A stretch of DNA of 32,173 nucleotides from an uncultured Verrucomicrobia subdivision 3 bacterium (GCA_903913865.1 CAIWMU010000180.1:1-32173), one strand, 5' to 3'; numbered from the stretch's first letter, positions 5,532 to 31,500 are shown. Notes: generated from the letters alone by a model not told the origin. Translations and numbers: made by a program.

Positions 5532-8500
5532 ATGAACCACTGGATCAGAACCATCGTGCTTCTCTGCCTCCACGTTGCCATTTGCAACGGGCAGCTGCTT
5601 CAACCGGCCAGCGTTGAGATATCGAACAAGACGTACCAGGTCGTTTACCTCACCAGGGGCGGCTTTGGCAAACCGGCCACCGCCCTCCTCCAGACAGCCG
5701 AGGGGAGTCAGGGAACCGCCCTGTTCCTTTTCCGCACAAACGCCACATCGGCAACACTTTCAATGAAAACAGGCGAGGGCTATCTGCTGACCCTCACCCC
5801 CACCAGCACAAACCTCTCAAGAATCCCCAAACTACCCGCGGGCGGGATTGATGCCATCACCAATGCCCCGCCCAGAATTGGAAAGCTGGATCTTGGCGCG
5901 GGCAGTCTGGTGGTGGCCGATGCCGCGAACCCCATCTCCATCGACGTGCTGGTCCTCTACACCGCCAGTGCGGCAGCCAGGGTCGGGGGGGATGCCGCCA
6001 TCATCACCCTCGCCAATCAGGCGGCGGCGGAGGCCAATCAGGCGTTTCTGGACAGCCAGGTCTATGTCACAGTCAACCTCGTGGGAATCGTCCCGGTCAA
6101 TCCCGCCTACACGGAATCCGGCTCCCTCGCCACCGAGCTGGGGCGTGTCGCCTTTTCCGGGGATGGTTACATGGAGGAGGCCCAGACATTGCGCAACCAA
6201 TACGGGGCCGACATGGTATCCCTTTTTTGCAACGCCCGCGACCCCTACTATGCAGGCATCGGCTACCTGCTCCCTGCCGGAAGCGACCTCGCCTACACGG
6301 CCATCGAGGTGGCCTACATCGTCGGCCACTACGTCTTCGCCCACGAACTGGGACACAACCTCGGATGCCACCATGACCGCGCCAATGCCACCAGCCCCGG
6401 TTTCTACCCCTACTCCTACGGCTACAACTTCCTCGCCAACAACGTCCGCTGGGGCACGGTGATGTCCTATCCGGGTGTCCGGCTCGGCTATTTCTCCAAC
6501 CCGAACGTCAGCTTCCTGGGTGTCCCGGTGGGCACGGCCAACGAAAACAACGCCCTGGGCATCAACCAGCGGGCGGCCGCCATCGCCGCGTTGCGCTCGC
6601 CACCCACCGCCACCCTCACGCTCACCAAAAACGGAACCGGCTCGATTTTGCTGGGCGGGACAAATGTCTCCGGCTCCGTCACGGTTCCCCGGGGATCCGT
6701 CCTCAACCTGAGTGCCCAGGGCAATTTCCTCGCCTGGTCCGGAACTCAAACGAGCCTCTCCACCAGCATCCAGGTGGTCATGACCAACAACACCGCCCTG
6801 ATGGCAAATTTCCAGGATGGAACCACCCCTCTGGCCCCGTTCATCGCAAAACAGCCTCTCTCACAAAACCTCCTCCTGGGAACAACTCTGACCCTCTCGG
6901 TCACCGGTTATGGAATTCCAGCACCCAAATTCTCCTGGTATAAGGATGAGCTTCCGCTGGGTGTCAGCACCTCCACCCTGACGATCCCCGAGGCCGATTT
7001 CGACACCGAGGGACTCTATTACTGCATCGTGAGCAACTCCGCCGGGGTGGTTCAATCCTCGACCGCCCTCGTCAATGTCGGCAATGCCCCGTCCTTTGTG
7101 CAACAGCCGGTCTCGCAGATCGGCGAGGTTGGGGGCAATGCCCTGTTTTCAGTGGTTGTGGATACCCTGTGGGTGACCTACCAGTGGCATGCGAACGGGG
7201 TGCCGATCCCGGGGGCCACCAACCGGGAACTCCTTTTGACCGGCATCAAGTCGTCGGACATGACCTCCTACTTTGTGGATGTGACCATCGCAACCTGCAC
7301 ATCCCGCAGCGCCGAGGCCAGCCTCCTGCTCGCCACCCCACCGAACATCACTCAGCAGCCCCAGCGCTTCGGGCTTCCCAGGGGCCAGTCGGCAAACCTC
7401 ACAGTCGATGCCTCCGGCTTCATGCCCCTGCTCTATCAATGGCTGCAAAACGGGATCATCCTTCCCGGCGCGACGAATTCATTTCTCACCCTCGATAACA
7501 TCCAATCCGCAGAAGCGGGCTCCTACCAGGTCCAGATCTCGAACCCGCAGGGAATCACCACCAGCACGAATGCCTCTGTGAGCGTGTATGACGCCCTGGC
7601 CATCACCCTCCAGCCCACCAACACCACGGCAGCCAAAGGCTCCACACCCATCTTCTATGTCGCTGCAACCGGAACCGCCCCCGTGACATACCAGTGGTTC
7701 AGGAACGGTGTTTCCCTCACTAACCAGGTTTACAGCTCCTGCCGCCTGCAAAATGTCCAACTCACAAATGCAGGAACCTATCATGTGGTCATCAACAACC
7801 CGGCCGGAACCCTGAACAGCACCCCCGCAACCTTGACGGTGCTCGATCCGCCGGTCATCCCCCAGCAACCCCAGAATCTGGCGGCAGATCTCGGAGCCGC
7901 CGCGACCTTCACGGTCTCTGCCACAGGCCGGACCCCCATGTCGTATCAATGGTCCCATAACTCAGCATTGATTCCAGGAGCCACAGGCAGCAGTCTCTCA
8001 ATCCCTGCGACAGCCCCCGACGATGCCGGACGCTATCAGGTGGTGGTCGAAAATCCCGATGGCAGTGTCACATCCTCTGCCGCAACCCTTTCGGTGAACA
8101 TGCCCCCTGCCATCAGTTCCCAACCCCGGAACAACACCGGCACAGCAGGGGGCAACGCATCCTTTTACGTCACAGCCACCGGTGTGGCGCCGCTCTCCTA
8201 TTACTGGACCTTCAACGGTTCCCGGGTGGGCGGGAATGCCGCTGACCTGACGCTGGGCAACCTCCAGACCAATCAGGCCGGATCCTACTCCGTCACGGTC
8301 AGCAACCGGCTGGGCACTTGCTCCAGCACCGTCGCCTCACTGATCGTCAAGGATCCCCCGCGCATCACCGCCCCCGCCACAATGTCGGTGGACGAGGGGA
8401 AGGTCCTCACCCTGGCCCCCGGATTCCAGGGAAGGGCGCCCATGACGTATGTCTGGTCAAAGAACGGGACGACCCTCGCAGGCCAGACATCCGCGATTCT

Positions 8501-11500
8501 CGTGATCAGCAATTTTCAATCCTCCCTGGATGGAGACTATGCCGTCACCGCCTCGAATCCGGACGGAAGCGCCACATCGGACGGGACCGCCATTACGACC
8601 TATCTGCTCCCCAGGCTTGTGTCCGCCCCGACGGACAGAAGCATCCCCTTTGGAACCACCGCTGCTTTCACGGCATCCACCCTTGGCGGCGCACCCCTCT
8701 CCCACCAGTGGAGGTTCGAGGGTGTCACGCTCCCGGGAGCCACCAACGCTTCCCTCTCCATACCGCTTGCGACCCTCACCAACGAGGGGACCTACGTGCT
8801 CACGGTGACAAACCGGATCGGATCCACCTCCTCCGTGCCGGTCCGCCTCTCGATTTCATTTCCGCCGCTCATCATCGTGCAGCCTGTGGCGTTGACCGTC
8901 ACACAGGGATTCTCCACAAACCTTTCCGTCACCGTCCAGGGGCGGGCCCCCATGACATACAGTTGGTCGCTGAACAACGCGCCCATCCCCGGCGCCACCA
9001 ATTCCACCCTCTCTCTCCCGGCGATTCAGACCTCCCATGCCGGTGATTACCGTGTGGTCGTGTCCAATGCGGACGGGACGGATGCAAGCCTGGCAGCCCG
9101 TCTGACCGTCATCATCCCGCCATCCATCACCACCCAGCCATCCGACAGCGTCGTGACCAAGGGCAACTCCGCCGTTCTCTCTGCGCTGGTCTCCAGCCTG
9201 ATCCCCTGCACTTACCAGTGGACCTTCAACGGGGCCCCACTCCCGGGGGCGACAAGCCAGAGCCTGACCCTGGCCGGCATCCAGCTCAACCAGGCGGGCC
9301 TCTACCAGTTGACGGCCATCAGCACCGCTGGAAGTGTGGCATCCCGGGCCGCGCGGATCACCGTGAAGGATCCGCCCTCCTTCATCCTCCAACCCGTCAA
9401 CACCACCGTCCGCCTCGGTGAGACATTGACTCTCTCCTCCAGCGCAACCAGCGAAGTGATACCCATCACCTACCAGTGGTACAAAGGCGGCAGCGCCATC
9501 CTGGGACAGACAGGCTCCAGCCTGGTCATCCCCGGCGTGGAGCCCACCATCGCGGGCACCTACACAGTCAAGGCCTCCAACTCCGATGGGACGGCGAGCA
9601 GCGGGGCGGTTTCCGTCTCTTTCCAAACCCAGCCACCCACCATCACCACGGACCTGCCTGCCACTCTCGCCATCGACCCGGATGCCGATCTCCAACTGAC
9701 CGTGGGGGTGACCGGCAGGGCACCGCTGACCTACAGTTGGACGTTCAAGGGGGCAGCACTGCCGGGCCAGACCGGCAGCACACTTTTGGTGCCGAATGTT
9801 CAGACCAATCACGCCGGGGCCTACCAGGTGACCGTTACAAACCCCGACGGCTCGGCAAGGAGCACAGCAACGGTGGTGACGGTTCTGGCCCTGCCCCCGA
9901 CCCTCACCCGGCAGCCGGCCAGTGCAACCGTTGTGCGGGGGGCCAGCGCCACCTACTCGGTGGGATGCCTCAACCCGATCGGAGTCTCATTCCAGTGGTA
10001 CAAGAATCATTCCCCCATCGCAGGTGCCACGAATAGCAGCCTCATTCTTCAGAACGTGGCGGACGCCGATGTCGCGAGTTACAATGTGGAGGTCGTCAAC
10101 GCCTATGGTTTGACGGCCAGTGCGGTTGCAGGTCTGACCCTCATCAACCCGCCAGTGATCACAACGGATGTGCAGGATGCCCTCGTGCTGCGGGGTGTTT
10201 CGACCGTGCTCTCCGTCGGTGTCCAAACCGGTGGCACCACCACCTGGCAGTGGATGTTGAACGGGGCCAACCTCAGCGGGGCAACCGTTGCAAACCTGAC
10301 CATCGTCGGTTCCACCAATGCGGAGGGTTCCTACCGGGTGCGCGTGGCCAACGAGGCCGGGTCTGTCACCTCAAGAACCGCCACGGTGACCCTGAAAATT
10401 CCCACAACCATCCTCACGCAGCCAGCCAGCCTGTCCATCAAGCCCGGTGAACAGGCCTCATTCAGTGTCGTCGCCACGGGACGGGGGACCCTCAGTTATC
10501 AATGGTCCTGGAATGGGACGCCTCTGCCGGGGGCAACCGGCGCTATGCTCTCCCTGGGTGCCGTCGAAACCTCCTCGGCGGGATCCTATGCGGTCTCCGT
10601 GACAGGCATGGATGGCTCGGCCGGCAGTCAGGCGGCCATCCTCACCATCGACAACCCTCCCGCCATCAGCGTGCAGCCCCAGGATGTGATGCTATTCCCC
10701 ACCAACCGCTCCGCGACCCTGACCGTCTCGGCCACGAGCAGCACGCCGTTGACATACCAGTGGCAGTTCGGAGGAACGAACCTCGCGGGTGCCACATCCA
10801 GCAAGCTTGCCATCCTGAACGCCACCGCACAACAGGAAGGCATGTATCAGGTGTCTGTTGAAAACGCCGTGGCCAAAGCGGTCAGCCGCCAGGCCTGGGT
10901 TCGTGTGTCCCAACCCCCGGTCATCTCCCTCCAGCCTGTGGGTGGAGTTGTCGCCATCGGAAGCTCATTCCTGCTCGCAACCGAGGTGACGGGCCGTCTT
11001 CCGCTCACCCTCCAATGGCAAAAACAGGGAGTCCCCATTCCGGGTGCGACAGGTTCAACCCTTGCAATCTCCAGCATCAAGTCCACCGACTTCGGAAGTT
11101 ACCAGCTTCTCGCCACCAACGTGGATGGCACAGCCACGAGCCTCACGGCCTCCCTTTCCCACGATCCCGCCGACCAGATCCCCCCGGCCATCCTCAGCCA
11201 GCCTGCAAATGTCACAGCCATTGCCGGATCGGGAGTGACCCTTTCCGTTGTCGCAGCAGGAACTGCCCCCCTCACCTGCCAGTGGAAGCGCAACGGCGTG
11301 AATCTTGCAGGTGCCACCGGGGCCAGCCTCAGCCTGGGCAGCCTCACATCCAGCCATCAGGGGGCCTACAGCGTCGGCATCACGAATGCCTATGGCGGAG
11401 TGCTCAGCGCCAGTGCCCAGCTTTCCATTCTCTACCCGCCCGGCATCACCTCCCAGCCGGTATCAATGACATCCACCCAGGGATGCACTCTGACACTCCG

Positions 11501-13724
11501 ATTCTCGGCAACCAACGCAACCTCCTGCCTGTGGATGCGGGATGGGATTGCTGTGGCCACAACTGCAGCAACCAGCCTCACCCTCTCCAACATCCAGGCA
11601 TGGTCTGCCGGCACCTACTCGGTGCTCTGTTCAAACGGGGCGGGCAGCGTCTCAACCCAGCCATTCACCGTCACCGTCTGTGTGCCACCCTCGATCATCA
11701 CCCAACCCTCCGGCACTTCCGCCTCTGTGGGGGGCACCGCCACCTTCACCGTGGTCGCGGGAGGAACCCCGCCGCTTTCCTATGCATGGTATTCCGGTGA
11801 GTGCGCCATCTCCGGCAAGACATCCAGCACTCTGGTTCTAACCAACATCAAAACCTCGAACGAAGGTTACTATTCCGTGCGGATCACGAATCCCTACGGC
11901 AAAGTCACAAGCGTTTCCGTTCCTCTCGCCGTCAAGGATCCCCCGGTCATCACCACCCAGCCGGCAGCCTCCAAAACATTGAATCCGGGTGCCACGCTTT
12001 CCCTCTCAATCAGTGCCACCGGCAGATCCCCGCTTTCCTACCAGTGGTTCAAGGATGGTGCGCCGCTGCAGGCCGGCGGAAACAGCTCATGCCTCTCCAT
12101 CGCAAACGTCCAGCCCGCCAACGCAGGGACCTATTTTGCGACGGTGGCCAATTCCGACGGCAGCGCCACAAGCCAGTCCAGTGCGGTGGCCGTGAACACG
12201 GCCCCCTATTTTCCCGGTGGCATCGGAAATCAGAATCCTGCAAAGGGGACAACCCTGATCCTGCAGCCGGCAATCAACGGAACAACCCCGATGTCATACC
12301 AGTGGAAGCGCAACGGCAGCAGCATCGCCGGGGCTACCGCCGCAACCCTCACAATCACCAACATCCAGTTTGCCAGCGAGGGCACCTACTCCATCTTCGC
12401 CTCGAATGTCGCCGGGAGCGCCAGCTTCAACATCAGTCTGGTGAACGTCTTCGCGCCTCCATCGGTCATTCAAGCCCCGGTGACGGCCAGCGTCTTTCCC
12501 GGATCGAACCACACCTTCACCGCCACCCTCGATGGCCGCACCCCTCTAACCTATCAATGGTACAAGGATGGATCACCCGTCGCCGGAGCCAATTCGAGCA
12601 ACCACGTCATCCTCGCCGCGCAGACTGCACACGCCGGGAACTACTACGTGAACGTCGTCAATTCGGATGGCGCGGTGAACACCTCCCCGGTGGCACTGAC
12701 GGTCCTCCAACGGCCTTCCTTCACCACGCATCCCAGGGGGGGCTCGATTCCGTTCGGAAAATCGACCAACCTGTATGTCGCCGCCACAAGCACCCTTCCG
12801 GTCCGCTATCAGTGGCACAGAAATGGCAACCCGCTCTCCGGCGCAACCAGTGCGGGCCTCGCCATCACAAACGCACAGGTCATCTCCGAGGGAGGATACT
12901 TCTGCACGGCCAGCAACGCCGTGGGCGTCTCAACCTCCACCGTCGCAACGATCACGATCATCTATCCACCTGCGGTCGTTTCCAACCCCGCAGGCAGAAC
13001 CGTGAATCAGGGCGGTTCGGTTGATCTTGAAGTCACCGTCAGCGGCAGGGAGCCGATGACCTACTCGTGGACACTCAACAGCCAGCCGATCGGCGGCGTC
13101 TCCAGCCGCATCCTTTCCATCCAGAACATCCAGCCCTCCCAGGCGGGAACATACGCCTGCATCGTCAGAAATGCGGATGGGACCGCCACCAGCGCAGGCG
13201 CCCTGATCACAGTCAGACAACTGCCGGTGATCACACAGAGTCCGGAAACCACCATCGTCACCGTCACCAACGCCTTCACACTGCAGGTCATCGCAATCGG
13301 CACCGGCACACTCACCTACCAGTGGAACAGGGATGGGACCAACATCTCCGGTGCCACACGGAGTTCCTATTCCGTGTCGTCGGCAACCTATGCGGATGCC
13401 GGCACCTACTTCGCCCAGGTGGCCAATGCCAACGGAACTGTCGCGAGCGATCCCGCCGTTGTCCTGGTGCTGCCGCCTCAACCCATCCTGATCCCCACAA
13501 ATTCCCTGCAGCCCGGCATCGCCCGGCTGATCCCCATCGCCGATGGCAGCAAGGGTGTGGTCTTCTACGGATGCGTCGGTCAGACCCTGATCATTCAAGC
13601 CTCAACCGATCTGAAGGTGTGGACCCCGCTGCAAGCCCTCACGGTGACAAGGAACCCGGTCCAGTTCGTTGACCGTGATGCCATGCGCCATCCAAAACGC
13701 TACTACCGGCTGCAGGTTCAATGA
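5532..13724 (+). CDS. giant secreted M12B-like zinc metalloprotease with 26 Ig-like domains
   Basis: Exported multidomain protein of 2730 residues. A signal peptide (residues 1-20, MNHWIRTIVLLCLHVAICNG) is followed by a prodomain-like region. A metzincin catalytic domain follows, with zinc motif HELGHNLGCHHD (His271, Glu272, His275, His281) and Met-turn VMSYPG (Met311), as in reprolysin-like M12B enzymes. Residues about 365-430 resemble an InlB-type bacterial repeat (GTGSILLGG...). Residues about 436-2645 are 26 Ig-like domains of about 85 residues, each with a core W (usually YQW), a PGAT turn, an AG(S/T)Y strand and an N..G turn; most lack paired cysteines. The last 75 residues are the shared tail module ending RYYRLQVQ. 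The catalytic set looks intact, so an active protease on a very long stalk is likely. ATG 5532 starts the signal peptide; no strong Shine-Dalgarno precedes it. The substrate is unknown. Confidence 0.93.
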   Translation: MNHWIRTIVLLCLHVAICNGQLLQPASVEISNKTYQVVYLTRGGFGKPATALLQTAEGSQGTALFLFRTNATSATLSMKTGEGYLLTLTPTSTNLSRIPKLPAGGIDAITNAPPRIGKLDLGAGSLVVADAANPISIDVLVLYTASAAARVGGDAAIITLANQAAAEANQAFLDSQVYVTVNLVGIVPVNPAYTESGSLATELGRVAFSGDGYMEEAQTLRNQYGADMVSLFCNARDPYYAGIGYLLPAGSDLAYTAIEVAYIVGHYVFAHELGHNLGCHHDRANATSPGFYPYSYGYNFLANNVRWGTVMSYPGVRLGYFSNPNVSFLGVPVGTANENNALGINQRAAAIAALRSPPTATLTLTKNGTGSILLGGTNVSGSVTVPRGSVLNLSAQGNFLAWSGTQTSLSTSIQVVMTNNTALMANFQDGTTPLAPFIAKQPLSQNLLLGTTLTLSVTGYGIPAPKFSWYKDELPLGVSTSTLTIPEADFDTEGLYYCIVSNSAGVVQSSTALVNVGNAPSFVQQPVSQIGEVGGNALFSVVVDTLWVTYQWHANGVPIPGATNRELLLTGIKSSDMTSYFVDVTIATCTSRSAEASLLLATPPNITQQPQRFGLPRGQSANLTVDASGFMPLLYQWLQNGIILPGATNSFLTLDNIQSAEAGSYQVQISNPQGITTSTNASVSVYDALAITLQPTNTTAAKGSTPIFYVAATGTAPVTYQWFRNGVSLTNQVYSSCRLQNVQLTNAGTYHVVINNPAGTLNSTPATLTVLDPPVIPQQPQNLAADLGAAATFTVSATGRTPMSYQWSHNSALIPGATGSSLSIPATAPDDAGRYQVVVENPDGSVTSSAATLSVNMPPAISSQPRNNTGTAGGNASFYVTATGVAPLSYYWTFNGSRVGGNAADLTLGNLQTNQAGSYSVTVSNRLGTCSSTVASLIVKDPPRITAPATMSVDEGKVLTLAPGFQGRAPMTYVWSKNGTTLAGQTSAILVISNFQSSLDGDYAVTASNPDGSATSDGTAITTYLLPRLVSAPTDRSIPFGTTAAFTASTLGGAPLSHQWRFEGVTLPGATNASLSIPLATLTNEGTYVLTVTNRIGSTSSVPVRLSISFPPLIIVQPVALTVTQGFSTNLSVTVQGRAPMTYSWSLNNAPIPGATNSTLSLPAIQTSHAGDYRVVVSNADGTDASLAARLTVIIPPSITTQPSDSVVTKGNSAVLSALVSSLIPCTYQWTFNGAPLPGATSQSLTLAGIQLNQAGLYQLTAISTAGSVASRAARITVKDPPSFILQPVNTTVRLGETLTLSSSATSEVIPITYQWYKGGSAILGQTGSSLVIPGVEPTIAGTYTVKASNSDGTASSGAVSVSFQTQPPTITTDLPATLAIDPDADLQLTVGVTGRAPLTYSWTFKGAALPGQTGSTLLVPNVQTNHAGAYQVTVTNPDGSARSTATVVTVLALPPTLTRQPASATVVRGASATYSVGCLNPIGVSFQWYKNHSPIAGATNSSLILQNVADADVASYNVEVVNAYGLTASAVAGLTLINPPVITTDVQDALVLRGVSTVLSVGVQTGGTTTWQWMLNGANLSGATVANLTIVGSTNAEGSYRVRVANEAGSVTSRTATVTLKIPTTILTQPASLSIKPGEQASFSVVATGRGTLSYQWSWNGTPLPGATGAMLSLGAVETSSAGSYAVSVTGMDGSAGSQAAILTIDNPPAISVQPQDVMLFPTNRSATLTVSATSSTPLTYQWQFGGTNLAGATSSKLAILNATAQQEGMYQVSVENAVAKAVSRQAWVRVSQPPVISLQPVGGVVAIGSSFLLATEVTGRLPLTLQWQKQGVPIPGATGSTLAISSIKSTDFGSYQLLATNVDGTATSLTASLSHDPADQIPPAILSQPANVTAIAGSGVTLSVVAAGTAPLTCQWKRNGVNLAGATGASLSLGSLTSSHQGAYSVGITNAYGGVLSASAQLSILYPPGITSQPVSMTSTQGCTLTLRFSATNATSCLWMRDGIAVATTAATSLTLSNIQAWSAGTYSVLCSNGAGSVSTQPFTVTVCVPPSIITQPSGTSASVGGTATFTVVAGGTPPLSYAWYSGECAISGKTSSTLVLTNIKTSNEGYYSVRITNPYGKVTSVSVPLAVKDPPVITTQPAASKTLNPGATLSLSISATGRSPLSYQWFKDGAPLQAGGNSSCLSIANVQPANAGTYFATVANSDGSATSQSSAVAVNTAPYFPGGIGNQNPAKGTTLILQPAINGTTPMSYQWKRNGSSIAGATAATLTITNIQFASEGTYSIFASNVAGSASFNISLVNVFAPPSVIQAPVTASVFPGSNHTFTATLDGRTPLTYQWYKDGSPVAGANSSNHVILAAQTAHAGNYYVNVVNSDGAVNTSPVALTVLQRPSFTTHPRGGSIPFGKSTNLYVAATSTLPVRYQWHRNGNPLSGATSAGLAITNAQVISEGGYFCTASNAVGVSTSTVATITIIYPPAVVSNPAGRTVNQGGSVDLEVTVSGREPMTYSWTLNSQPIGGVSSRILSIQNIQPSQAGTYACIVRNADGTATSAGALITVRQLPVITQSPETTIVTVTNAFTLQVIAIGTGTLTYQWNRDGTNISGATRSSYSVSSATYADAGTYFAQVANANGTVASDPAVVLVLPPQPILIPTNSLQPGIARLIPIADGSKGVVFYGCVGQTLIIQASTDLKVWTPLQALTVTRNPVQFVDRDAMRHPKRYYRLQVQ
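6836..13470 (+). repeat. 26 tandem Ig-like domain repeats, about 255 bp each
   Basis: Coding tandem array inside the giant protease. I counted 26 Trp cores in order, from FSWYKD to YQWNRD. Nine domains have GR before the core strand, and all nine also carry DG in the later turn; of the other 17, only domain 11 has DG. The GR/DG type falls on domains 5, 7, 9, 12, 15, 17, 21, 23 and 25, so the two types mostly alternate. This suggests growth by duplication of two-domain units. Confidence 0.9.
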
Positions 13725-13781
13725 ATGCCACGGAGATTGGCTCAGCCATGCCTGCCACAATCCCATCCCGGGAACCGATCC

Positions 13782-13931
13782 CCGGGGATTCCCCGGGTCC
13801 AATTTCAGGGATTCCCCGGATGTTTTCGACACCTCGATTCTGAGATAGTGTGTTCAGGTTTAAGCGGGCTGAAGAAAGTAACCGCCAAGGAGAATAAAAG
13901 CCGCACCCCTTCGGGTGCGGCTTTTATCGTT
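13782..13931 (+). repeat. 150-bp dispersed element, copy A
   Basis: Aligns without gaps to 17016-17165 in the same orientation, with about 121 of 150 identical by my count. Parts in order: GGGGATTCCCC at 13784-13794 and AGGGATTCCCC at 13807-13817 (23 bp apart), a diverged middle, CTGAAGAAA, AAGGAG at 13887-13892, then a 15-bp hairpin. It lies between the convergent ends of the giant protease and the M6 protease. No start codon is shared by both copies, which argues against a conserved peptide. I do not recognise it as a named family. Confidence 0.85.
13894..13927. terminator. 15-bp hairpin, probable bidirectional terminator
   Basis: Perfect stem ATAAAAGCCGCACCC / GGGTGCGGCTTTTAT with loop CTTC. 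The A/T-rich base gives a U-rich 3' arm on either strand. It stands 170 bp after the giant protease stop and 60 bp after the M6 stop on the other strand, a good place to end both transcripts. It is also the 3' part of repeat copy A. Confidence 0.7.
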
Positions 13932-13987
13932 TATAGAAGCACATTCTGAAACCTTCCATCTCACCAAGGCCGCTCCCGGATTTGCCC

Positions 13988-16915
13988 CTATTCAAGCTCA
14001 AGCCGGTAATAACGCTCGGAAACGGCCGGTACCGCGTCATCCCAGGAATTGAGCGGGGGAGTTCCCGGCATGCCTGCGGAAACGGGGGCGAAGGGGCCAC
14101 CCGGGGAATTGCCGCACAAGACCCGGTAGGTGCGGTTCGTCGCACCGGGCCATTCCAGCCGGAGATGGTTGTCCGCCCCGGCACAGGCAGCCCGGGAGAT
14201 GCGCAGGAGGGAGGCTGGATCATTCGGGTCCGTGCCGGCCAGGGCTTCCTTCCAATTCGGGACCCCGTCCCCATCATCATCCAGTGATTCAGAGTGTTTG
14301 TTCCAGATGACCACCTCGGCCCAACTGTCGGTCTGGTGCACCACACGGACATTCCAGCCGTATGCACCGCCCACGCTGCCGGGATTGCCATCGCCACCGG
14401 ACAAAGCCGTTCCTGTTGCGATCAGGTTGGTGCGGTAGAGCATCACTTCGTTGGTGCCGATAAATCCCCGCGTCGCAATGACGTTCTGAACCGGCCTGCC
14501 CGCCACATAACCCTGGCCCCGCGGCCCGTACAACCGCGTGGATGGCAGGACCGTGCTGGCATCCCATTGCGCCGTCCACCAGCTGTTGCTCCCCATTTCG
14601 AGAAGCCCCGGGTAGTATCCGGTGGCATCCGAAAACTGTGGCACAGCAGGCCTCCCCGCAAAGCCGGCACCCTCGAAGACATACGGCGGATCGAGGTGAA
14701 AATCAAATGTCGCCCATTGGCTGAACGGGGCATCCCGCATCGAACCGCGGGAGAAGGCTACCCCCCGGTCCCCCAGAAAACCAAGATTTTCCCAGTATGG
14801 ATCGACAAAGGGCTCCGGATGGGCATCCACCACCAGCAGGTGGCCCTTGGGCCCGAAGGACGGGCCGTCGTTCATGTAATTCGCGATGCTGTTGTCGCCA
14901 TACCGGTCGTTTTGATACCAGACCACCATGCCTGAATTGACGGGGCCAAAGCGGTAGCGTGGATCCCCAAGCGCCTGGTCGTAGCCTCCGGAGCTGCTGG
15001 TGTTGCGCCACTGGAGGTGATAGCACTGGGTGCTGCCGTTGGTGGACATGCCACCGTTTATCTCCCATCCACCCGTGTAAGCCCACAGGCCGCTCTCCGT
15101 GTTTGCATTATCCGCCAGCAGCACCTGCCCGCCGGACTTCACAACGATTTCATCCAGGAATGGCCCATCCCCCAGCACATATCCGTCCGTCGCATACCGG
15201 AACCGCAGGAGGACATCCTTGCCGGAAAATCCCGCCAGCGAAAGGCTCACGGGAAGGTAGGCGGGATAACTGCCACTGGTATCCGTGTAGCTCGCCACGG
15301 TTTGCCACGAGGCACCGGCGTCCGGGGAGACTTCAACATACAAAAAGTCGTAACCCGCCTCCACGTCGTAGGCGGCCTTGAATTGCAGCGTCGCGTCGCC
15401 CGAAGGAATGTGGATCGGCTGGCGGAGGGTCATGCGGCTGTCACCAGAGTTCACCGCACCCCCCCACCACTGGCCATTGCCAATGGGCTGGACCGCCAGC
15501 GGCACGCTGGTTTTTGGAAGCTGGATTTTCACGCCACGCACCAGATTGGGAGATTTCGGAAAGCGGCTCGCCTGCCCCAGCTGCACCCTGTAAACCTTCG
15601 AAGGGTCAGAGACCAGCAGCGGACTGAGCCAGCCCCATTGGTCGAGGTGCATCGGATCCATCGCTTCGGGCAGGAATCCCAGCGGGAAACCGACCCAGCT
15701 GTCCGACATCAATGTCCAGAGTCCGGACGAGGCCTGGCCATCCCCATAGGTGTACAAATCAATCGCCCCAAGATTATGGGCAAACTCATGGGCGAGCACC
15801 GCTATCCCGGCGTTCTCCGGCATCATGATGTAACTGTAGGCCGAAACTCCGGGGGCCATCTCCAGGGGTGCAGGAAGGCTCCAGGAGTGTGACCATATCC
15901 CCCCTTCACCGTATGGGGTGCGATTCAGCACGGCGGGCGAATCCTCCTCCCCGAGCCCCGAATGTATGATCCACAGCCGGTCGATGTAGCCATCCCCGTT
16001 CTGGTCGTATTCAGCCCAGTTGAAATTCGGGTATGCGGCCTTCGCGCTCCTGAGGGCGTCGGCCACCAGCGAACGGGCATTGCCCTTCCCCGGAATCGCG
16101 CCATTGTCCGCAGGCCGCTGGGAGCATGAACGGGCCCCGGGCAGGCCATCCGCCCCATACCACCAGACCGAATTCGTCACCTGAACCCAGCCCAGCACTG
16201 TGCCGTCGATTGTGTAGGCACCGCCGGACAGATCTTCATAATAATCCCGCACCGATCTCCCGGTGTAATCCTCGTGGACCACCGAACCATCCTCGCGGCT
16301 GAAATCGAAGGTCAACCCGTTGCCAAAGATGATGTTCCTATAATAGTCGGCCGTGAAGTCCGGCATCCAGATCATCTTCGCGGAGGCATCGTTGGAACCT
16401 GTCGGTCTCGGGATCTCGTTGTGCAGAGGGCCACGGTAGGTGATGTTCGTCGCGCCGGTGATGCCATACTTCTGCGCAAAATAGCGCGACGCTGAACTAT
16501 TCCCCAGGTTGGTCCCGTCAAACTCCGTGCTCTCACAACGCCCGAATGGGTCCCATGTGGAGACCCCGGGTGTCCATGTGAATGTGTCCGTTCCGGCGAA
16601 CTCCACCAGGATCACCAGCACACGGTCGCTCCCGCTCAGGCCGTGGAGTTCAGGGCCATCCCCGTATCGCGGCCCCGTGCTGCGTCTGGCACCCGCCTCA
16701 AGCCGCGCCTGCTGCACCTCAAGTCGTTTCAGGATGCGCGCACGATCAATCGGATTCGGTTCACCGTTCTCTTTCAGCAGCCGCCTTATCGTCTGACGCG
16801 TGCAGGAACTGGTCCCGTCCGCCTGCGGCATTCCCATCACCGGCACACCCGCCAGCAGGAACCCGGCGATCAGTAGTGGCAGTGTCCCCCATTGAAGATT
16901 AACCTTGGTTTTCAT
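13988..16915 (-). CDS. secreted M6 (immune inhibitor A-like) metalloprotease
   Basis: Exported zinc protease of 975 residues. A signal peptide (MKTKVNLQWGTLPLLIAGFL...) is followed by a propeptide-like stretch. The M6 catalytic region has SVRDYYEDLSGGAY, YDQNGDGYIDRLWIIHSG and zinc motif HEFAHNLGAIDLY (His376, Glu377, His380, Asp386). A jelly-roll, MAM-like region follows (YDFLYVEVSPDAGASWQTV ... LLRFRYATDG). Near the end is a calcium-type DDDGDGVPNWKEALAGTDPND stretch like thrombospondin type 3 repeats, then the shared tail module ending RYYRLELE. ATG 16915 is preferred over an upstream TTG (16960) because the signal peptide begins there. The gene is bracketed by direct copies of the 150-bp element. 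The family is known for secreted proteases that cleave extracellular proteins; the target here is unknown. Confidence 0.93.
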   Translation of the reverse strand: MKTKVNLQWGTLPLLIAGFLLAGVPVMGMPQADGTSSCTRQTIRRLLKENGEPNPIDRARILKRLEVQQARLEAGARRSTGPRYGDGPELHGLSGSDRVLVILVEFAGTDTFTWTPGVSTWDPFGRCESTEFDGTNLGNSSASRYFAQKYGITGATNITYRGPLHNEIPRPTGSNDASAKMIWMPDFTADYYRNIIFGNGLTFDFSREDGSVVHEDYTGRSVRDYYEDLSGGAYTIDGTVLGWVQVTNSVWWYGADGLPGARSCSQRPADNGAIPGKGNARSLVADALRSAKAAYPNFNWAEYDQNGDGYIDRLWIIHSGLGEEDSPAVLNRTPYGEGGIWSHSWSLPAPLEMAPGVSAYSYIMMPENAGIAVLAHEFAHNLGAIDLYTYGDGQASSGLWTLMSDSWVGFPLGFLPEAMDPMHLDQWGWLSPLLVSDPSKVYRVQLGQASRFPKSPNLVRGVKIQLPKTSVPLAVQPIGNGQWWGGAVNSGDSRMTLRQPIHIPSGDATLQFKAAYDVEAGYDFLYVEVSPDAGASWQTVASYTDTSGSYPAYLPVSLSLAGFSGKDVLLRFRYATDGYVLGDGPFLDEIVVKSGGQVLLADNANTESGLWAYTGGWEINGGMSTNGSTQCYHLQWRNTSSSGGYDQALGDPRYRFGPVNSGMVVWYQNDRYGDNSIANYMNDGPSFGPKGHLLVVDAHPEPFVDPYWENLGFLGDRGVAFSRGSMRDAPFSQWATFDFHLDPPYVFEGAGFAGRPAVPQFSDATGYYPGLLEMGSNSWWTAQWDASTVLPSTRLYGPRGQGYVAGRPVQNVIATRGFIGTNEVMLYRTNLIATGTALSGGDGNPGSVGGAYGWNVRVVHQTDSWAEVVIWNKHSESLDDDGDGVPNWKEALAGTDPNDPASLLRISRAACAGADNHLRLEWPGATNRTYRVLCGNSPGGPFAPVSAGMPGTPPLNSWDDAVPAVSERYYRLELE

Positions 16916-16924
16916 GGCTGTTAT

Positions 16925-16957
16925 CACAGTTAGACTGTGTAAGCATTTCAAAGTCAA
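16925..16957 (-). promoter_or_regulatory. candidate promoter and operator of the M6 protease gene
   Basis: On the minus strand, TTGACT (16957-16952) is separated by 17 bp from TCTAAC (16934-16929), a 4/6 match to a -10 box. A perfect inverted repeat CACAGT-TAG-ACTGTG (16925-16939) covers the -10, as a repressor site would. Transcription would begin near 16922, only about 7 nt before ATG 16915, and no Shine-Dalgarno is visible, so the message would be nearly leaderless. Inferred from sequence only. Confidence 0.45.
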
Positions 16958-17015
16958 CAAGAAAATTAAACCACGTTCAATGGTGCCGGTGACGGGATTG
17001 AAGGGATCCGGTCAC

Positions 17016-17165
17016 CCAGGGATTCCCCGGGTCAACGTTCAGGGATTCCCCGGATGTTTTCCGCACTTCGACTCTGGCATGCTATTTTCACAGTTCGGTG
17101 ATCTGAAGAAACAAATCGCCAAGGAGAGTAAGAGCCGCACCCCTTCGGGTGCGGCTCTTACCGTT
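17016..17165 (+). repeat. 150-bp dispersed element, copy B
   Basis: Second copy of the element at 13782-13931, same orientation, no gaps. AGGGATTCCCC occurs at 17018-17028 and 17041-17051, again 23 bp apart; AAGGAG is at 17121-17126; the hairpin follows. This copy lies upstream of both divergent genes (M6 on minus, hybrid kinase on plus), so it cannot be explained simply as a convergent-gene terminator. Confidence 0.85.
17128..17161. other. 15-bp hairpin with compensated changes relative to copy A
   Basis: Stem GTAAGAGCCGCACCC / GGGTGCGGCTCTTAC, loop CTTC. Against copy A it differs at four bases, which form exactly two pairs, both A-T in A and G-C in B. The stem is thus fully preserved despite change. 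It could act as a terminator, an RNA stability element or a structured RNA domain. Confidence 0.75.
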
Positions 17166-17346
17166 TTACGAACTACCCGCCCGGCCGCAGCTTTTCCCGA
17201 ATGAACCTCCGGGGGCTCGGGATCACCGCTCGCCAATATAATTCTTTCTGCCGCGACAAATTCCATCAAACAGAGGCTTGCGTAAACATCATCACTAGGC
17301 AAAGTTGGTGTTGTAAGGATCATTTTCCATAATACGAGGAGTTGCC

Positions 17347-17557: not shown

Positions 17558-20500
17558 GTGAAGTTATCCCATGTGTTGATTGTTGGCCCCGAAAATGAAC
17601 TTTCTGGCAAGTTTCAGAAGTGGCTGACCGATCTGGGATATTCAATCACAGGTCTGGCCAGTGATGCGAAATCCGCTCTGGTCTCGATCGAATCCAATCG
17701 TCCCGACCTGATTCTCATGGTGCTTCATACTTCCAGAAAGTCAGATGGGATCCTGGCAGCCCAGGAAATCCGAAGGATCCACGACCTTCCAGTGGTCTTC
17801 CTGAGCCGGTCCGGGGATGAATCCTACCTGCAAGCGGTAACCCCGTTGGAATGGCCTGACAGCCTCCCACACCCGGGTGATGGCTGGGATCTGTGCATGG
17901 CGATTGAGTCCACCCGTATCCGGCACCAGACCGAGCGGCGGATTCGGGAGTCCGAATCCCGCATGGGACGTTCCATCAAGGCAGGTAAGGTCGGGCTATG
18001 GGAATGGGACCTGAAGACGAACCGGATGTATTTCTCCGCCGAATGGAAGCGCCAGATCGGCTACGAGAAAAATCAACTGAGAGACACGCTGGAGGAATGG
18101 AGGGATCATGTTCATCCGGATGAATCCGCGCATGTTTTTCAGATGCTGGAAGACTTCATCCGGCAGCCAACCCGGAATTTCCAAATCTCCTACCGACTGA
18201 GACACAAGGATGGATCCTATCGATGGATCCTGGCCCAGGCATCCCTCGAACACGACAGGACGGGCCGCCCCTCGAAGTTGCTTGGTTCGCATGTCGATAT
18301 CACCGATCAGAAGGAGCATGAGGACGAGATTGAACGCCTGAACCGCCTCTACCGGGCGCTCAGCCTCGTGAACGGGCTGTCCCTGCATGTCACATCCCGC
18401 GAGGAGCTGCTCTCAGGAGTCTGCCAGATTCTGGTGGACTGCGGTCAACTGCGTTTGGCATGGATTGGCTGGCGGGATCCGGTGACCCAGGAGGTTCGCC
18501 CTGTGGCGCACTCCGGTGATGCGGGATCCTATTTGAAGGAGATCAAGGTCTATGCCGACCATTCCCTCCTCGGCCAGGGCCCCACGGGTGCGGCAATCCG
18601 TGAGGACCACCCGGTCATTTGCAACAATTTTCTCAACAACTCCACCACGCTGCCCTGGCGCGAGGCTGCCACCCGGCTGGGACTCGAATCCTCCGGAAGC
18701 TTTCCCATCCACCAGAACAATCAGGTCTGCGGCGCCCTCATGGCATATGCCTCGGAGCCGTCCTTTTTCAGGGACAAGGAGATCGTCCTGTTCGAGGAGG
18801 CGGCTGCCGATATTTCCTTCGCCTTGGATCATCTGGAGCATGAGCGGCAGAAGAGGCAGGCGGAGGAGGCCCTCCGGGAGAGGGAGTCGGAATTGCGTGC
18901 CATGTTCGATGTGGCTTCCATCGGAATAGCCCAGTCTGACCCGCAAACCGGCCGCTGGCTGAGGGTGAACCAGAAGATGTGCGACATTTGCGGGTATTCA
19001 GCCGTTGAACTGCTGGAGATGAGTGTTCCCGGGCTGACTCATCCTGACGACCGCCAGAAGGAACAGGATCTCTTTCAACAGGTCGTCCGGGGGGAGATGT
19101 CTGATTACCGCTTGGAAAAGCGCTACATCCGCAAGGATGGGGCGATTGTCTGGGTGAGTATCAACATGACCCTCATCCGGGATGCCACAGGGAAACCGCA
19201 CCGCACGATGGCCATCATAGAGGAGATCACTGAACGCAAGCAGGCTGAGGAGCAAATCCGCAAGCTGATGAGGGCGGTGGAGCAAAGTCCCGCGATTATC
19301 ATGATCACCGATCTCACCGGTGCCATTGAGTATGTGAACCCGAAGTTCACGGAGTTGACCGGCTACACCCTTGCCGAAGTCCTCGGGATGAATCCTCGCA
19401 TCCTCAAAGGTGACAAGACCTCCGCTGAAGAATACCGGCACCTCTGGGAGATGATCACCCGGGAGGGCCAGTGGAGCGGGGAGTTCCGGAACCGCAAGAA
19501 GAACGGCGAGCTGTATTGGGAATTCGCCACCATATCCCCCATTATCGGCGCCAACGGCCGCCCCACCCACTTTCTTGCCGTCAAGGAGGACATCACACAA
19601 CGCAAGACGCTCGAGGCGCAGCTGCGCCAGGCCCAAAAACTGGATTCCATCGGCCAACTGGCCGGCGGGGTTGCCCACGACTTCAACAACATCCTCGCCC
19701 TGATGATGATGCACCTCGGTTCCCTGCAGGACAATCCGACCATTGGGGGCAATGTCCGGCAATCACTGACCGAACTGATGGATGGAGCCAAGCGCGCCGC
19801 GAGCCTGACAAGGCAACTTCTGATCTTCAGCCGCCGCTCCATCATGGAGATCAAGCCCCTGGATCTGAACGAACTGACCACCAACCTCCTGAAAATGCTC
19901 GGCCGCCTGCTTGGGGAGCACATCAAGGTGCAACTCGACCTGCGCAGGGATTTGCCGGCAATCGAGGCTGACTCCGGGATGATCGAGCAGGTGATCATGA
20001 ACCTCACGGTGAATGCCCGGGATGCCCTCTCCAATGGTGGACAAATGACCATCAGGACCGAACTGATCCATCTCGATCCAACCCAAACCAGAGGGGGGAT
20101 CGATTTGAAACACGGCCTCTTCGTCTGTCTCTCTGTCGCCGACAATGGGTGCGGCATGGATGATGCCACCCTTAAACGCATCTTCGAACCCTTCTTCACA
20201 ACAAAGGAACCCGGCAAGGGAACAGGGCTCGGGCTGGCCACCGTTTACGGAATTGTATCGCAGCACAGCGGTTGGGTGGATGTCGAAAGCACCCCCGGAC
20301 TGGGAACCACCTTCAAAGTTTATCTCCCGGCCGCGCCTGAGACACGAGTCCCCCTTCCTGCAGCAGACAAATCAGCCACCGTTCGGGGTGATGAAACCAT
20401 CCTGCTCGTGGAGGATGATGCGAGCCTCCGACGGGTCACGGCTCAAAGCCTGCGCCTGCTCGGTTACCGTTTGCTGGAGGCTGCCAACGGTCATCAGGCC

Positions 20501-20761
20501 TTGACCCTGTGGCAGCAGCATTCCGGGATAATTGACCTTCTTTTCACCGACATGGTCATGCCGGAAGGGATGTCGGGAGCCGATCTGGCGGAAAGACTGA
20601 GGGAGAAACGCAGCACCCTCAAGGTGATCATCGCCAGCGGCTACAGTGCCGAAATCTTTTGTGACAACAAGGCAAGAATTGAAGGGGCGACTTACGTTCA
20701 AAAACCCTACCAGCTCAGGAGCCTCTCCAAGACGATTCGTGATTGTCTGGACGGCAAATAA
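17558..20761 (+). CDS. hybrid histidine kinase: pseudo-REC, PAS, GAF, PAS, PAS, HisKA, HATPase, REC
   Basis: Soluble hybrid sensor kinase of 1067 residues with no membrane segment. The N-terminal receiver fold (1-125) resembles the LMDIH type but reads LMVLH, so Val55 replaces the phospho-acceptor Asp; the acidic pair is VGPE and the conserved Lys position is SLPHP, so it should not be phosphorylated. Then PAS (134-255), GAF (265-430), PAS (444-560), PAS (568-685), HisKA with H-box [11 protein letters not shown] (His707), HATPase with N-box [22 protein letters not shown] and GTGLGLA, and a C-terminal receiver (945-1067) with VEDD, Asp998 in TDMVMP, the ASG switch and QKPY. GTG 17558 is chosen because the in-frame stop at 17531-17533 leaves no better start. 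No DNA-binding regulator lies beside it, so phosphate probably leaves through the C-terminal receiver to an unlinked partner. Confidence 0.95.
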
Positions 20762-22788: not shown

Positions 22789-23142
22789 ATGAAAATAACC
22801 AGACAGGCCACCGATGCCACTGTGCTCGCCGAACTGGGCAGGCGACTGACCCGATCCCGGCTGGATTTGAACCTGACCCAGGCCCAGTTGGCCGGGGAGG
22901 CCGGGGTTTCGAAGCGCACAGTTCAGCGGCTGGAATCGGGCGGGGTATCCCCGCAATTGTCCGGCTTCATACGCGTCTGCCGGGTGTTGAACCTGATTGA
23001 GCGCTTTGACCTCCTGGTCCCGGAACCACTCCCGAGTCCAATCGAACAATTGAAGCTGCAGGGCAGACAGAGGAGGCGTGCGTCATCCGCCAGGGTGCAG
23101 GATCCCACGCCCCAAAAATGGCAATGGGGGGATGATCAATGA
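22789..23142 (+). CDS. hipB: HipB-like antitoxin, XRE-family DNA-binding protein
   Basis: Antitoxin and autorepressor of a type II toxin-antitoxin pair, 117 residues, cytoplasmic. Residues about 13-70 form an XRE/Cro helix-turn-helix (LGRRLTRSRLDLNLTQAQLA, then GVSKRTVQRLESG). A basic linker (RQRRRASS) leads to a short C-terminal tail KWQWGDDQ; HipB proteins often use a flexible tail with Trp to contact HipA or mark turnover. The stop overlaps the toxin start by four bases (ATGA, 23139-23142), a sign of coupled translation. It is the expected binder of the palindromic sites just upstream. Confidence 0.88.
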   Translation: MKITRQATDATVLAELGRRLTRSRLDLNLTQAQLAGEAGVSKRTVQRLESGGVSPQLSGFIRVCRVLNLIERFDLLVPEPLPSPIEQLKLQGRQRRRASSARVQDPTPQKWQWGDDQ

Positions 23143-24446
23143 GCCTGGCCGAAGTGAGGCTTTGGGGGAGGACAATCGGCGCGGTCTCATGGGAGGATGG
23201 CGGGAGGGCTGCAGCCTTCCAATACGATCCAGCCTTTGCACGGAGCGGAATTCAAATCTCACCCATCACCATGCCGCTGGGTTCGCAGGTTTATTCCTTT
23301 CCCGATCTTCCGGCCGCCACTTTTCACGGTCTGCCCGGCCTGCTTGCTGATTCACTGCCGGACAAGTTCGGCAATGCGCTGATCGATGCCTGGCTGTCCA
23401 TTCAGGGCCGCTCGCCCCGGAGCTTCAGTGCCGTGGAGCGGCTCTGCTACACCGGCCAGCGCGGCATGGGAGCTTTGGAATTTGTCCCGGCCACCGGGCC
23501 GAAGCCCCAGCCTGCAAAGCGGATCGAGATTGACTCACTGGTCCGCCTGGCCTCGGATGTTCTGAGCCAGCGCCGGAGTCTCAAGGCCACCTTCGCAGGC
23601 GGGCGCAGAAAAAATGCACTGAATGACATTTTGCGGGTGGGAACATCGGCGGGTGGAGCCCGCGCCAAGGCGGTCATTGCCTGGAATCGTGAGACCAACG
23701 AGGTTCGCTCAGGCCAGATTGAGGCCGGCGCAGGATTTGACTATTGGTTGCTGAAATTCGACGGCGTAACCTCGAACATGGACAGGGAGCTTGATGATCC
23801 CAAGGGCTACGGCGCGATCGAATATGCCTACCACTTGATGGCGAAGGCGGCGGGAGTGGCGATGAGCGAATGCCGGTTGCTTGAGGAGAACGGCCGGCGG
23901 CACTTCATGACCCGACGGTTTGACCGGTTGGAGGGTGGCGCGAAGCAGCACATGCAATCGCTCTGTGCCCTCGCCCATTTCGACTTCAACCAGCCGGGAG
24001 CCCATTCCTATGAACAGGCGATGCTGGTCATGCGCCAACTGCTCCTGCCGATGGTCGCCATCGAGGAGCAGTTCCGCCGCATGGTGTTCAACATCATCGC
24101 CCGCAACCAGGATGACCATGTCAAGAACATCGCCTTCCTGATGGACCGGAATGGGACCTGGTCACTCGCACCCGCGTTTGACGTCACCTACAGCTACAAT
24201 CCGGCAGGCAGCTGGACCAGCCAGCACCAGATGTCCATGAACGGCAAGCGTGACGGTTTCTCCCTGGCCGATTTCCGCACCTTTGCCAAAAACGCCCACA
24301 TGACCCGGGGTCGCGCCGAAACCATTGTGATGGAGGTCATCGACGCTGTGAAAAACTGGCGGGACTTTGCCGGTCAGGCGGATGTCATGCCGGACTGGCG
24401 GAAACAGATCCACCAGAACCTGCGCCTGAACATCCCCGACAAATGA
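23139..24446 (+). CDS. hipA: HipA-like serine/threonine kinase toxin
   Basis: Kinase toxin of 435 residues, full length for the family, with N-subdomain and kinase core. HipA proteins phosphorylate a translation-linked target, in E. coli glutamyl-tRNA synthetase, to cause dormancy. Visible motifs: Gly-rich loop GTSAGGARAK (Ser170 a candidate autophosphorylation site), ATP Lys206 in WLLKFDG, catalytic RNQDDHVKN (Asp325, Asn330) and metal-binding Asp348 in PAFDVTYS. The start overlaps the hipB stop, with a GGGGGG ribosome site seven bases upstream. All catalytic parts appear intact, so the toxin is probably active and held by HipB. It ends 25 bp from the converging propeller gene. The cellular target here is unknown. 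Confidence 0.93.
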   Translation: MSLAEVRLWGRTIGAVSWEDGGRAAAFQYDPAFARSGIQISPITMPLGSQVYSFPDLPAATFHGLPGLLADSLPDKFGNALIDAWLSIQGRSPRSFSAVERLCYTGQRGMGALEFVPATGPKPQPAKRIEIDSLVRLASDVLSQRRSLKATFAGGRRKNALNDILRVGTSAGGARAKAVIAWNRETNEVRSGQIEAGAGFDYWLLKFDGVTSNMDRELDDPKGYGAIEYAYHLMAKAAGVAMSECRLLEENGRRHFMTRRFDRLEGGAKQHMQSLCALAHFDFNQPGAHSYEQAMLVMRQLLLPMVAIEEQFRRMVFNIIARNQDDHVKNIAFLMDRNGTWSLAPAFDVTYSYNPAGSWTSQHQMSMNGKRDGFSLADFRTFAKNAHMTRGRAETIVMEVIDAVKNWRDFAGQADVMPDWRKQIHQNLRLNIPDK

Positions 24447-28512: not shown

Positions 28513-31500
28513 ATGCAGCCCAAACTCCTATTCACCACGTTCCTGCTCCTCGCATGGAATCTCCCCCTGCCAGGTGCGCCCTTCGATGCCGCGCCCTCGG
28601 CGCTGCCCCTGCCCGATGGTGCCGGTCTCCTCTGGGAAGATCCCCGCGAAATCCACAGCGTGAGCGTCCTGTTTTCCAACGCCGCCCCGGACCCCTCCAG
28701 CATCCACCTCGAATATTGGGGCAGCCGGTGGCCCGAACAACGCCTCCCCAAGGATCGTGAGCCGGGCGGCGGCGATGTGGGCTGGATGGAACTGGGCAAT
28801 TGGCATCAGGGGGGATGGCGGGCCGCTGATACCTCCGTTCAATCCAATGGAAACCGCCTCACGTTCACCTTCAACCCGGTGAATCTGAAGGAGTTCAAGG
28901 AGATCAAGGACTACCCCGCACCGTTTCGTTACACGCTCAAAATCCGGCTCGCATCCCCCCAACCCAGCCCGGGCGTGGAACGGTTCGAGGCGTTTACAGA
29001 CTCCACCATGTCTGAAGCCACTGTTGTGCTGGCCTGGAAGCGTCCGCAAAGCCCGCCACCTGCAGCCACCTCCTTCAATGGCAGCGTCATCTTAATGGAA
29101 TCGATCGGCCGGGACCGATCCCGACTCCGCCTGGCAACCACTGCGAACAGTGATCCAAACACCTTCGACAAAACCCTCGTCTCCATCGGGACCGGCACAA
29201 ACCAGTTCACCTTCGCCCCGGATGATCTTGCAAAGGGACCCCTCTTCATCCCCGCCTTCGGGGTAGCTGTCCTGCCCGCTGGTGATACCCGCGACTATGC
29301 CACCCTTGAGCGGGAACAGAAGCAGGCCAACGCCCGCACCCTCCACGACCGGGTCGCCGATCTGCCGGAGCAGACCTGGAAATCCGCCTGGGCCGGGCTG
29401 CCCCGCAAGAAGTCCCGGATCTACTTTCCCCTCGGTCTGGACGGCGGACGGCAGCGGTTCCAATTGCACGAGGATGGCAGCATCTGGTTCCGTTCGAACG
29501 ATGGCTACCTCCGCGCACGCCCAGGCAGGGACACCCCGCGTCTGGATCTGGAACCGTCCTCGGTTGGATTCAAATTCGGCCCCATCCCCCCCGCCGCAGA
29601 CCGCCATCTTGAGGAGGAAAGCCTCCCCATCTGCGAAACCGCATGGAATGCAGGCGGTGTGCGGACCATCGAGACCGCGCTCCTGACCGAACTCGGTGGA
29701 ACATCCCCCAAAGGGAACCGCCCCGAGCCGGATGCCTTCGCTGTGTTCATGGCTCGCTTCACCTTCACAAACACCACCGACACAACAAAAACAGCCACCC
29801 TGCCGCTGACCTATTCCGCCGGTGACAGGAAACAGCAACTCCGCTGCGATACCAACGGCTGCCTCTGGCTCGGGGACAACCCCCGGGCGCAGGTCATCGC
29901 CCCGGCCGATGCCACCCTCGCCCCCGGCAGCACCACCTGGTCGCTGGACCTCCAACCCGGGCAGACAAAATCCATTCTCGTCAAAATTCCCTACCTCGTT
30001 CTGAACGGCCAGACGGAACTGGACCAGCTCCGCAATCTGGATTTCGAGGTGGAACGTAAAACCACCTCCGCCTACTGGCGTCAAAAAATGGATGAAAGCA
30101 GCCGCCTCATCACACCCGAACCGGTGCTCGACCAGTTTTACCGCTCCCACGCCCGGCATCTGTTGGTCAATTGCGAGAAGGAGCCGGGCAGTGACCGCCG
30201 CTTCGCACGGGTTGGCTCCTTCTCCTACGGCGCCTATGGGAACGAGTCCTGCATGATGGTCGTGGATCTTGACCGCAGGGGCCTGCATCTGGAGGCCCGG
30301 GAATGCCTGGATGCCTGGATTCATTATCAGGGTACCGTGTCCCTCCCGGGCGATTTCTCAAGCCGCAAGGGGGTCCTCTACGGTGCTGGAGGCTATGAGG
30401 CTGGGGGCTACAACCAGCACCACGGATGGATCCTCTGGGCAATGGCCGAGCACTATCGATTCACCCGTGACCGCAAGTGGCTGGAACGGTCCTCCCGGAG
30501 CATGCTTGAGGCCGCAGATTGGATCATTCGCGAAACATCCCGCACATCGGACAGGCACCCCCTCGAACGCGGGTTGCTGCCCGCCGGAAGTCTGGAGGAC
30601 ATCGGCGACTGGTGGACCTGGCTTTCCACAAGCTGCTACACCTGGCGGGGGCTCGATTCCGCCGCGTGGGCCCTTGAGCAATTGAAGCACCCCGAAGCCC
30701 CCCGCATCCGCGCAGCCGCCCGGGAATACCATTCAAAGCTCATCTCCAATTTCACCGCAGCCGCCAGCCGTTCCCCGGTCGTCCGCCTGCGGGATGGCAC
30801 GGCCGTGCCGCATGTCCCCTCCTCGGCCCACAAGCGGGGCCGGAGCTTCGGCTGGATTTGCGAAACGCTCGAGGGCGCCCTGCACCTGCTCATCACCGGC
30901 GCCATAGACCCCCGTTCCCGGTTGGCAGACTGGATCGTCAACGATTATGAGGACAACCTCTACCTCTCCAACCAGTTTGGCTACACTCTCGACAACTTTG
31001 ATGCCGACTGGTTCTCCCGTGGCGGCATGTCCATGCAGGCCTGCCTCCTGCTGGATGTGGAACCCTACCTCTACCGCGATGAAGTGAAGCATGCCCTGCG
31101 CGCCCTCTTCAACGGCCTTGCCGTCAGCCACTTTCCCGATGTCCACATGAACACCGAACACGCACTGCCGGACATGGCCGACTGGCGCGGCGACCACTTC
31201 AAGAGTTCCGATGAAGCCAATGCCTGCGGATGGCTTCGCCACCTCTTTGTCCGTGAGAACGGGGAACAACTGCTCCTGGGCCAGGCCGTCCCCCGCCAGT
31301 GGCTCGCACCAGGCCAGCGCTGCGGCATTGAACGGGCCGCCACCTACTTTGGGCCAATATCCATCGTTTACACAGGCACTCAAGGGGGGATCACCGCAAC
31401 CATCAACGGCCCCACGCGAAATCCCCCGGCCACGCTGCGGGTCCGTTTCCGGCAACCGGATGGCAAATCCCCCTCCACCGTGACGGTCAACGGCAAGCCC

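Follow-up and report, generated by a model that had tools for sequence, protein, structure and literature searches.

Two copies of a 150-bp element bracket an M6 protease gene

The question raised by this locus is what kind of element a 150-bp sequence is that stands in two copies, one on either side of an M6 protease gene. An earlier note on the window (the whole 32,173-nt stretch of DNA analysed here) had left three options, a dispersed repeat family, a structured RNA or a footprint of cassette movement of the M6 gene. The gapless alignment at about 81% on which it relied was confirmed, as copies A (13782-13931) and B (17016-17165) lie in direct orientation and are identical at 121/150 positions (80.7%). 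The second-best ungapped match of copy A within the window reached 66/150, and identity drops to background just beyond both ends of the copies, giving sharp borders. The two GGGATTCCCC boxes of each copy do start 23 bp apart (13785 and 13808 in A, 17019 and 17042 in B), and the AAGGAG and the 15-bp hairpin were found again in both copies (hairpin at 13894-13927 in A and 17128-17161 in B). The four differences between the copies in the stem of this 3' hairpin form two compensated pairs, A-T to G-C, as had been claimed. When four random stem substitutions were simulated, two doubly compensated Watson-Crick pairs arose in 81 of 200,000 simulations and all 15 stem pairs were retained in 779 of 200,000. 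A second hairpin, the palindromic nature of the boxes (CCCGGGGATTCCCCGGG-type) and a promoter adjoining the boxes had been overlooked.

We put at about three in four the probability that A and B are paralogous, complete small-RNA genes controlled by a regulator (Table 1), and the deciding evidence is that from relatives. The two copies differ in a mosaic fashion. Boxes and -35 are identical at 42/47 positions (3/6 between the boxes), the linker at 8/8 and the terminator hairpin at 30/34, with every change in the terminator hairpin compensated. The boxes, -35, hairpin-1 loop, linker and stem pairing were kept while the promoter spacer, the -10 and the 5' end of the RNA diverged; such kept parts next to a drifting spacer and RNA 5' end are what would be expected of a regulated RNA gene under selection.

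Table 1. Features of the two copies, in window coordinates; promoters, regulator sites and RNAs are predictions.
Feature	Position	Strand	Details and evidence
Copy A box 1, palindrome CCCCGGGGATTCCCCGGG, putative regulator site	13780..13797	+	box promoter in 10/13 family genomes, E<=1e-4
Copy A box 2, TTCAGGGATTCCCCGGA, 23 bp past box 1, abuts -35	13804..13820	+	alignment with copy B, site comparison
Copy A promoter	13821..13849	+	-35 TGTTTT 13821-13826; 17-nt spacer ending TGA; -10 GATAGT 13844-13849; xAxxxT position in 29/29 sites
Copy A predicted small RNA	13856..13932	+	start ~7 nt past -10, end at terminator tail; fold z -3.8
Copy A hairpin 1, GCGG..CCGC, loop with CUGAAGAAA	13864..13885	+	one doubly compensated pair relative to B
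Copy A linker CAAGGAGA	13886..13893	+	identical in copy B
Copy A terminator hairpin and tail	13894..13932	+	15-bp stem, CGTTT
Copy B box 1	17014..17031	+	comparison with A, R2 sites
Copy B box 2	17038..17054	+	identical to copy A box 2
Copy B promoter	17055..17083	+	-35 TGTTTT; 17-nt spacer ending TGG; -10 CATGCT 17078-17083
Copy B predicted small RNA	17090..17166	+	hairpin 1 17098-17119; linker CAAGGAGA 17120-17127; terminator hairpin 17128-17161; fold z -6.8

The neighbours of copy A are convergent (5532-13724(+) and the M6 gene (-)) and those of copy B divergent (the M6 gene (-) and 17558-20761(+)), so that simple termination does not account for both, as the earlier note had already argued. 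A reading that makes the hairpins nothing more than (bidirectional) terminators of their neighbours, and the boxes unrelated sites duplicated along with them, would suit copy A, and GCCGCACCC-type stems end other genes too, for example the FKBP genes in contig C104 of the source genome (G000) and in G001:C108. However, the divergent setting of copy B does not fit, conservation extends to the linker and hairpin 1, and boxes, promoter, RNA and hairpin keep a fixed spacing in both copies, a distance at which other genomes have unrelated stems. We consider this reading very unlikely.

Movement of a cassette or mobile element that brought the M6 gene between direct repeats is highly improbable. The M6 gene is missing from 11/12 family relatives, including the same-genus G001, and is thus present in 2/13 genomes, as such movement might leave it. 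However, the repeats have their own promoter and terminator, an architecture they share with single-copy loci elsewhere, their 81% identity indicates that the copies are old, and the sole other M6 homologue in the family, in G009, has no such repeats, box pair or RNA in the sequence examined around it.

Two other loci in the window were noted. The gene at 5532-13724, which adjoins the M6 gene, encodes a 2730-aa secreted-looking protein in which many Ig-like repeats come after a metzincin-type protease domain (weak Mep72 match). At 22789-24446 an HTH-like protein and, behind it, a HipA-like one (weak YjjJ-type match) make up a HipBA-like toxin-antitoxin pair.

Structure of the predicted RNAs

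Each predicted RNA folded better than 200/200 of its shuffles. Folding of A and B revealed in hairpin 1 a compensated pair, G-C to A-U, together with a C-G/U-G change, and the doubly compensated pairs over both hairpins number three. This paired structure with compensated changes supports the structured-RNA option. ANGGA (as AAGGAG) occurs once per RNA, exposed in the linker between the two stems. Both copies passed the terminator script, copy B with a poor U-tract (CTCTTACCGTTTTA) that counts against the small-RNA-gene reading. A generic sigma-70 plus terminator scan missed both elements owing to a non-consensus -35 and a weak U-tract. Pairing of the A/B RNA with the RNA predicted at G000:C105 was not better than with shuffles.

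Peptide coding was considered and rejected. An open frame spans both copies, but differences between A and B fall 6/4/7 by codon position with no third-position bias, and the frame in copy B would begin within the -10.

Promoter and hairpin could instead form a 5' leader with a regulated terminator for the downstream gene, which would be the hybrid kinase at 17558 for copy B and a response regulator in G005. The start of the kinase is about 390 bp downstream of copy B, and in G005 a box promoter with a terminated RNA stands directly upstream of the response-regulator gene. Against this, copy A has no same-strand gene downstream (the M6 gene being convergent), the G000:C105 RNA reads toward a convergent small ORF, and no alternative antiterminator fold was present among the low-energy structures of A and B, making a leader or attenuator quite unlikely.

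The promoter with boxes recurs, not the whole element

The source genome (G000; 6.27 Mb in 267 contigs, 95% complete) and 12 relatives made up the family set of 13 genomes. Of the things that the earlier note had proposed to look for, an extra compensated pair was found, in hairpin 1, and further full copies were not. BLAST and covariance searches of G000 yielded no full copies beyond the two, and none was found in the 12 family relatives, where the covariance model matched the hairpin type alone or the boxes alone. With two full copies in 6.27 Mb and none in 12 relatives, a dispersed repeat family does not describe the element; what recurs is the promoter with its boxes only.

The RNA part of A/B was not found by the covariance model in the 12 family relatives beyond its hairpin, so the evidence that the RNA itself is conserved comes from two copies plus one weak relative, G000:C104. 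There the RNA part scored 36.8 bits, as compared to about 28 from the hairpin alone, and a box pair 130 nt upstream gave a weak match (E 0.009); a third paralogue of A/B is possible. This locus, G000:C104:42697-42947 (-), has its weak box pair followed about 130 nt on by RNA-like sequence with two GGA motifs that ends in the terminator of the FKBP gene, and is a possible fourth member. In G001:C108 a better box promoter is directed at the same FKBP gene, with an RCC1-like gene lying in between.

Neither the window nor 7 related loci matched Rfam at the gathering threshold, and sub-threshold matches look like chance. The exact box-pair pattern occurred in 35 stretches among 84,980 species genomes, many in Actinomadura and 0 with a Verrucomicrobiota title. 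The GGGAWTCCCC pair in many Actinomadura genomes is a two-strand palindrome and probably unrelated.

A model (R2) was built from the box pairs of G000 (window, C105 and C107), G004, G005 and G007, ending at the -35, and it picked up further box pairs in the family. By eye, the consensus of the sites is CCCCGGRGAATCCCCGG, 4-6 nt and ATTTCCAGNNTTNCCCCGGATTG, the final TTG being the -35. An xAxxxT hexamer, which was not built into R2, stood 17-18 nt past the -35 in 10/10 non-seed sites examined, as compared to 0-4/10 at other offsets, except for a neighbouring offset that overlaps via one-base tolerance. Overall xAxxxT was at the -10 position in 29/29 sites examined. Judged by sequence, a promoter of their own is thus present at these loci. 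With TGTTTT, A and B have a poorer -35 than most other sites (TTGNNN), which counts against their being small-RNA genes.

The box pair with -35 and -10 at fixed spacing was detected in 10/13 family genomes (E<=1e-4). A refined model (R3), applied to 320 genomes of the order, found strong non-seed sites in other families, in G054 (2.6e-11), G185 (1.6e-10) and G102 (5.2e-10), and also in G021. The survey of downstream sequence took in part of the R3 sites, and some box loci end at contig edges (e.g. G002:C331).

Box promoters lead into predicted terminated RNAs and response-regulator genes

Short non-coding stretches closed by an intrinsic terminator followed 9/29 sites. The script detected eight of them (window A and B, G000:C105, G005:C160, G009:C219, G004:C113, G185:C249 and G008:C161), as compared to 2/580 for shuffles; the ninth, G054:C87, was identified by eye because its terminator has a longer loop than the script allowed. 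Measured from the predicted start, the end of the terminator stem falls at 66-72 nt in five family sites (A, B, G000:C105, G005 and G009). The predicted RNAs of G000:C105, G185:C249, G004:C113, G009:C219, G054:C87 and G005:C160 resemble A and B in box pair, promoter spacing, short length and terminator, but differ in the body of the RNA. A CUUUCUGUUUAGG-like pyrimidine segment is common to several of them and absent from A and B, and pyrimidine-rich segments are found in the RNAs of G004, G005, G009 and G185.

The G000:C105 locus (29448-29490 (-)) is a third box-driven predicted small-RNA gene in the source genome; its terminator is strong and its RNA body a different one. A REC+GerE response regulator, which itself follows a sensor-kinase end, lies about 0.6 kb upstream of it.

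Mutually orthologous REC+GerE (NarL/FixJ) response-regulator genes stand behind the box promoter in G005, G007, G009 and G012, and the sites in G009 and G012 were outside the R2 seed set. Boxes before four orthologous genes suggest that a regulator of this type probably binds them, and the apparent autoregulation makes it the leading candidate for the protein that binds the boxes. Such linkage is not proof of binding. The nearest orthologue in G000 is C234 (47% identity), and the absence of a box upstream of it counts against the assignment; a paralogue of the regulator adjoins the G000:C105 RNA gene.

Other genes behind the box promoter encode receiver-domain proteins, a sugar transferase in G001 and exported proteins, the last two named by eye. 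A short protein family, 'MKM(L/V)F(F/Y)SSD' (MKMLFFSSD), stands directly behind the box promoter in three genera (G004:C142, G008:C486 and G010). A conserved 38-39-aa ORF (M..AQ.NPVKTM..LI.DR...R..IL.....) in the same position in two genera (G007:C75 and G002:C68) may encode a small membrane protein belonging to the same regulon.

Comparison with known small-RNA systems

Sets of near-identical small RNAs under one regulator, intrinsically terminated, are known in PrrF1/PrrF2, RyhB1/RyhB2 and Qrr1-5, and these RNAs use Hfq. A and B resemble them in being several alike genes with an intrinsic hairpin end and one presumed regulator, but regulators and RNA sequences differ and Hfq was not found here: PF17209 had no match in 14 related genomes including G000, while control genomes were positive. 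Multiple copies of such duplicated trans-acting small RNAs are mentioned in PMC7911923.

The Gac-controlled Rsm/Csr RNAs (rsmX, rsmY and rsmZ; csrB and csrC) are likewise alike in their palindromic upstream activating sequence, intrinsic terminator and paralogous copies, and the regulator here would also be of NarL/FixJ type. They differ in several respects. The CCCCGGRGAATCCCCGG pair is unrelated to the GacA upstream activating sequence TATAGCGAAACGCTTACA (PMC7911923), A and B have two boxes 23 bp apart that touch the -35, and each RNA has one ANGGA instead of many GGA motifs.

The source genome has a CsrA gene (G000:C214, E 8.8e-23), and together with the AAGGAG linker this makes a Gac/Rsm-like role possible. 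In this narrower form of the small-RNA-gene reading, the RNA would sequester CsrA via AAGGAG, and the regulator would be the functional counterpart of GacA. The NarL/FixJ-type regulator linked to the boxes, the palindromic upstream sites, the ANGGA exposed between two stems and a duplication like the documented one of rsmX-1/rsmX-2 (PMC7911923) are all consistent with this. However, a single ANGGA per RNA contrasts with 6-10 GGA motifs in Rsm RNAs (PMC7911923), CsrA had no detectable gene in G004, G005, G007 and G008, of which G004, G005 and G008 have box-driven RNAs, and the RNAs of G004, G005, G009 and G185 bear the pyrimidine-rich segments instead. We therefore regard a CsrA sponge as unlikely.

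A candidate two-component small-RNA circuit

If each copy is a small-RNA gene, the regulator, probably a phosphorylated NarL/FixJ-family (REC + GerE) response regulator, would bind both palindromic boxes, which at 23 bp apart are on the same helix face. Box 2 touches the -35 and box 1 lies two helical turns upstream, which, given the weak -35 and -10 elements, matches the geometry of class II activation from a tandem site. We infer activation rather than repression, the bound regulator switching on a weak sigma-70-type promoter. Transcription would yield a non-coding RNA of about 75 nt, consisting of hairpin 1, the CAAGGAGA linker and the terminator hairpin. The RNA probably acts in trans, by base pairing with mRNAs via the exposed purine CUGAAGAAA loop and the AAGGAG linker, or by binding CsrA.

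A wider proposal is tentative, and we hold it at somewhat less than even odds: an undescribed two-component-controlled small-RNA regulon, conserved in several families of one order, in which a NarL/FixJ-type regulator, autoregulated via the double palindrome, drives one or more Hfq-independent RNAs of about 70 nt (three or four in G000). The A/B pair would then form a branch specific to its lineage, with a seed that is purine-rich and resembles a CsrA site or a ribosome-binding site, as compared to the pyrimidine-rich seed of the others.

Activator-controlled duplicated small-RNA genes are a kind already known, while the promoter signature and the RNAs appear to be undescribed; our literature search found no study of regulatory small RNAs in Verrucomicrobiota. 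Recurrence of the boxes before predicted small-RNA genes and response-regulator genes in relatives points to an undescribed regulatory circuit. This matters also because these genomes are without detectable Hfq, and a defined promoter signature allows a regulator, its targets and a number of small RNAs to be predicted together across many uncultured genomes.
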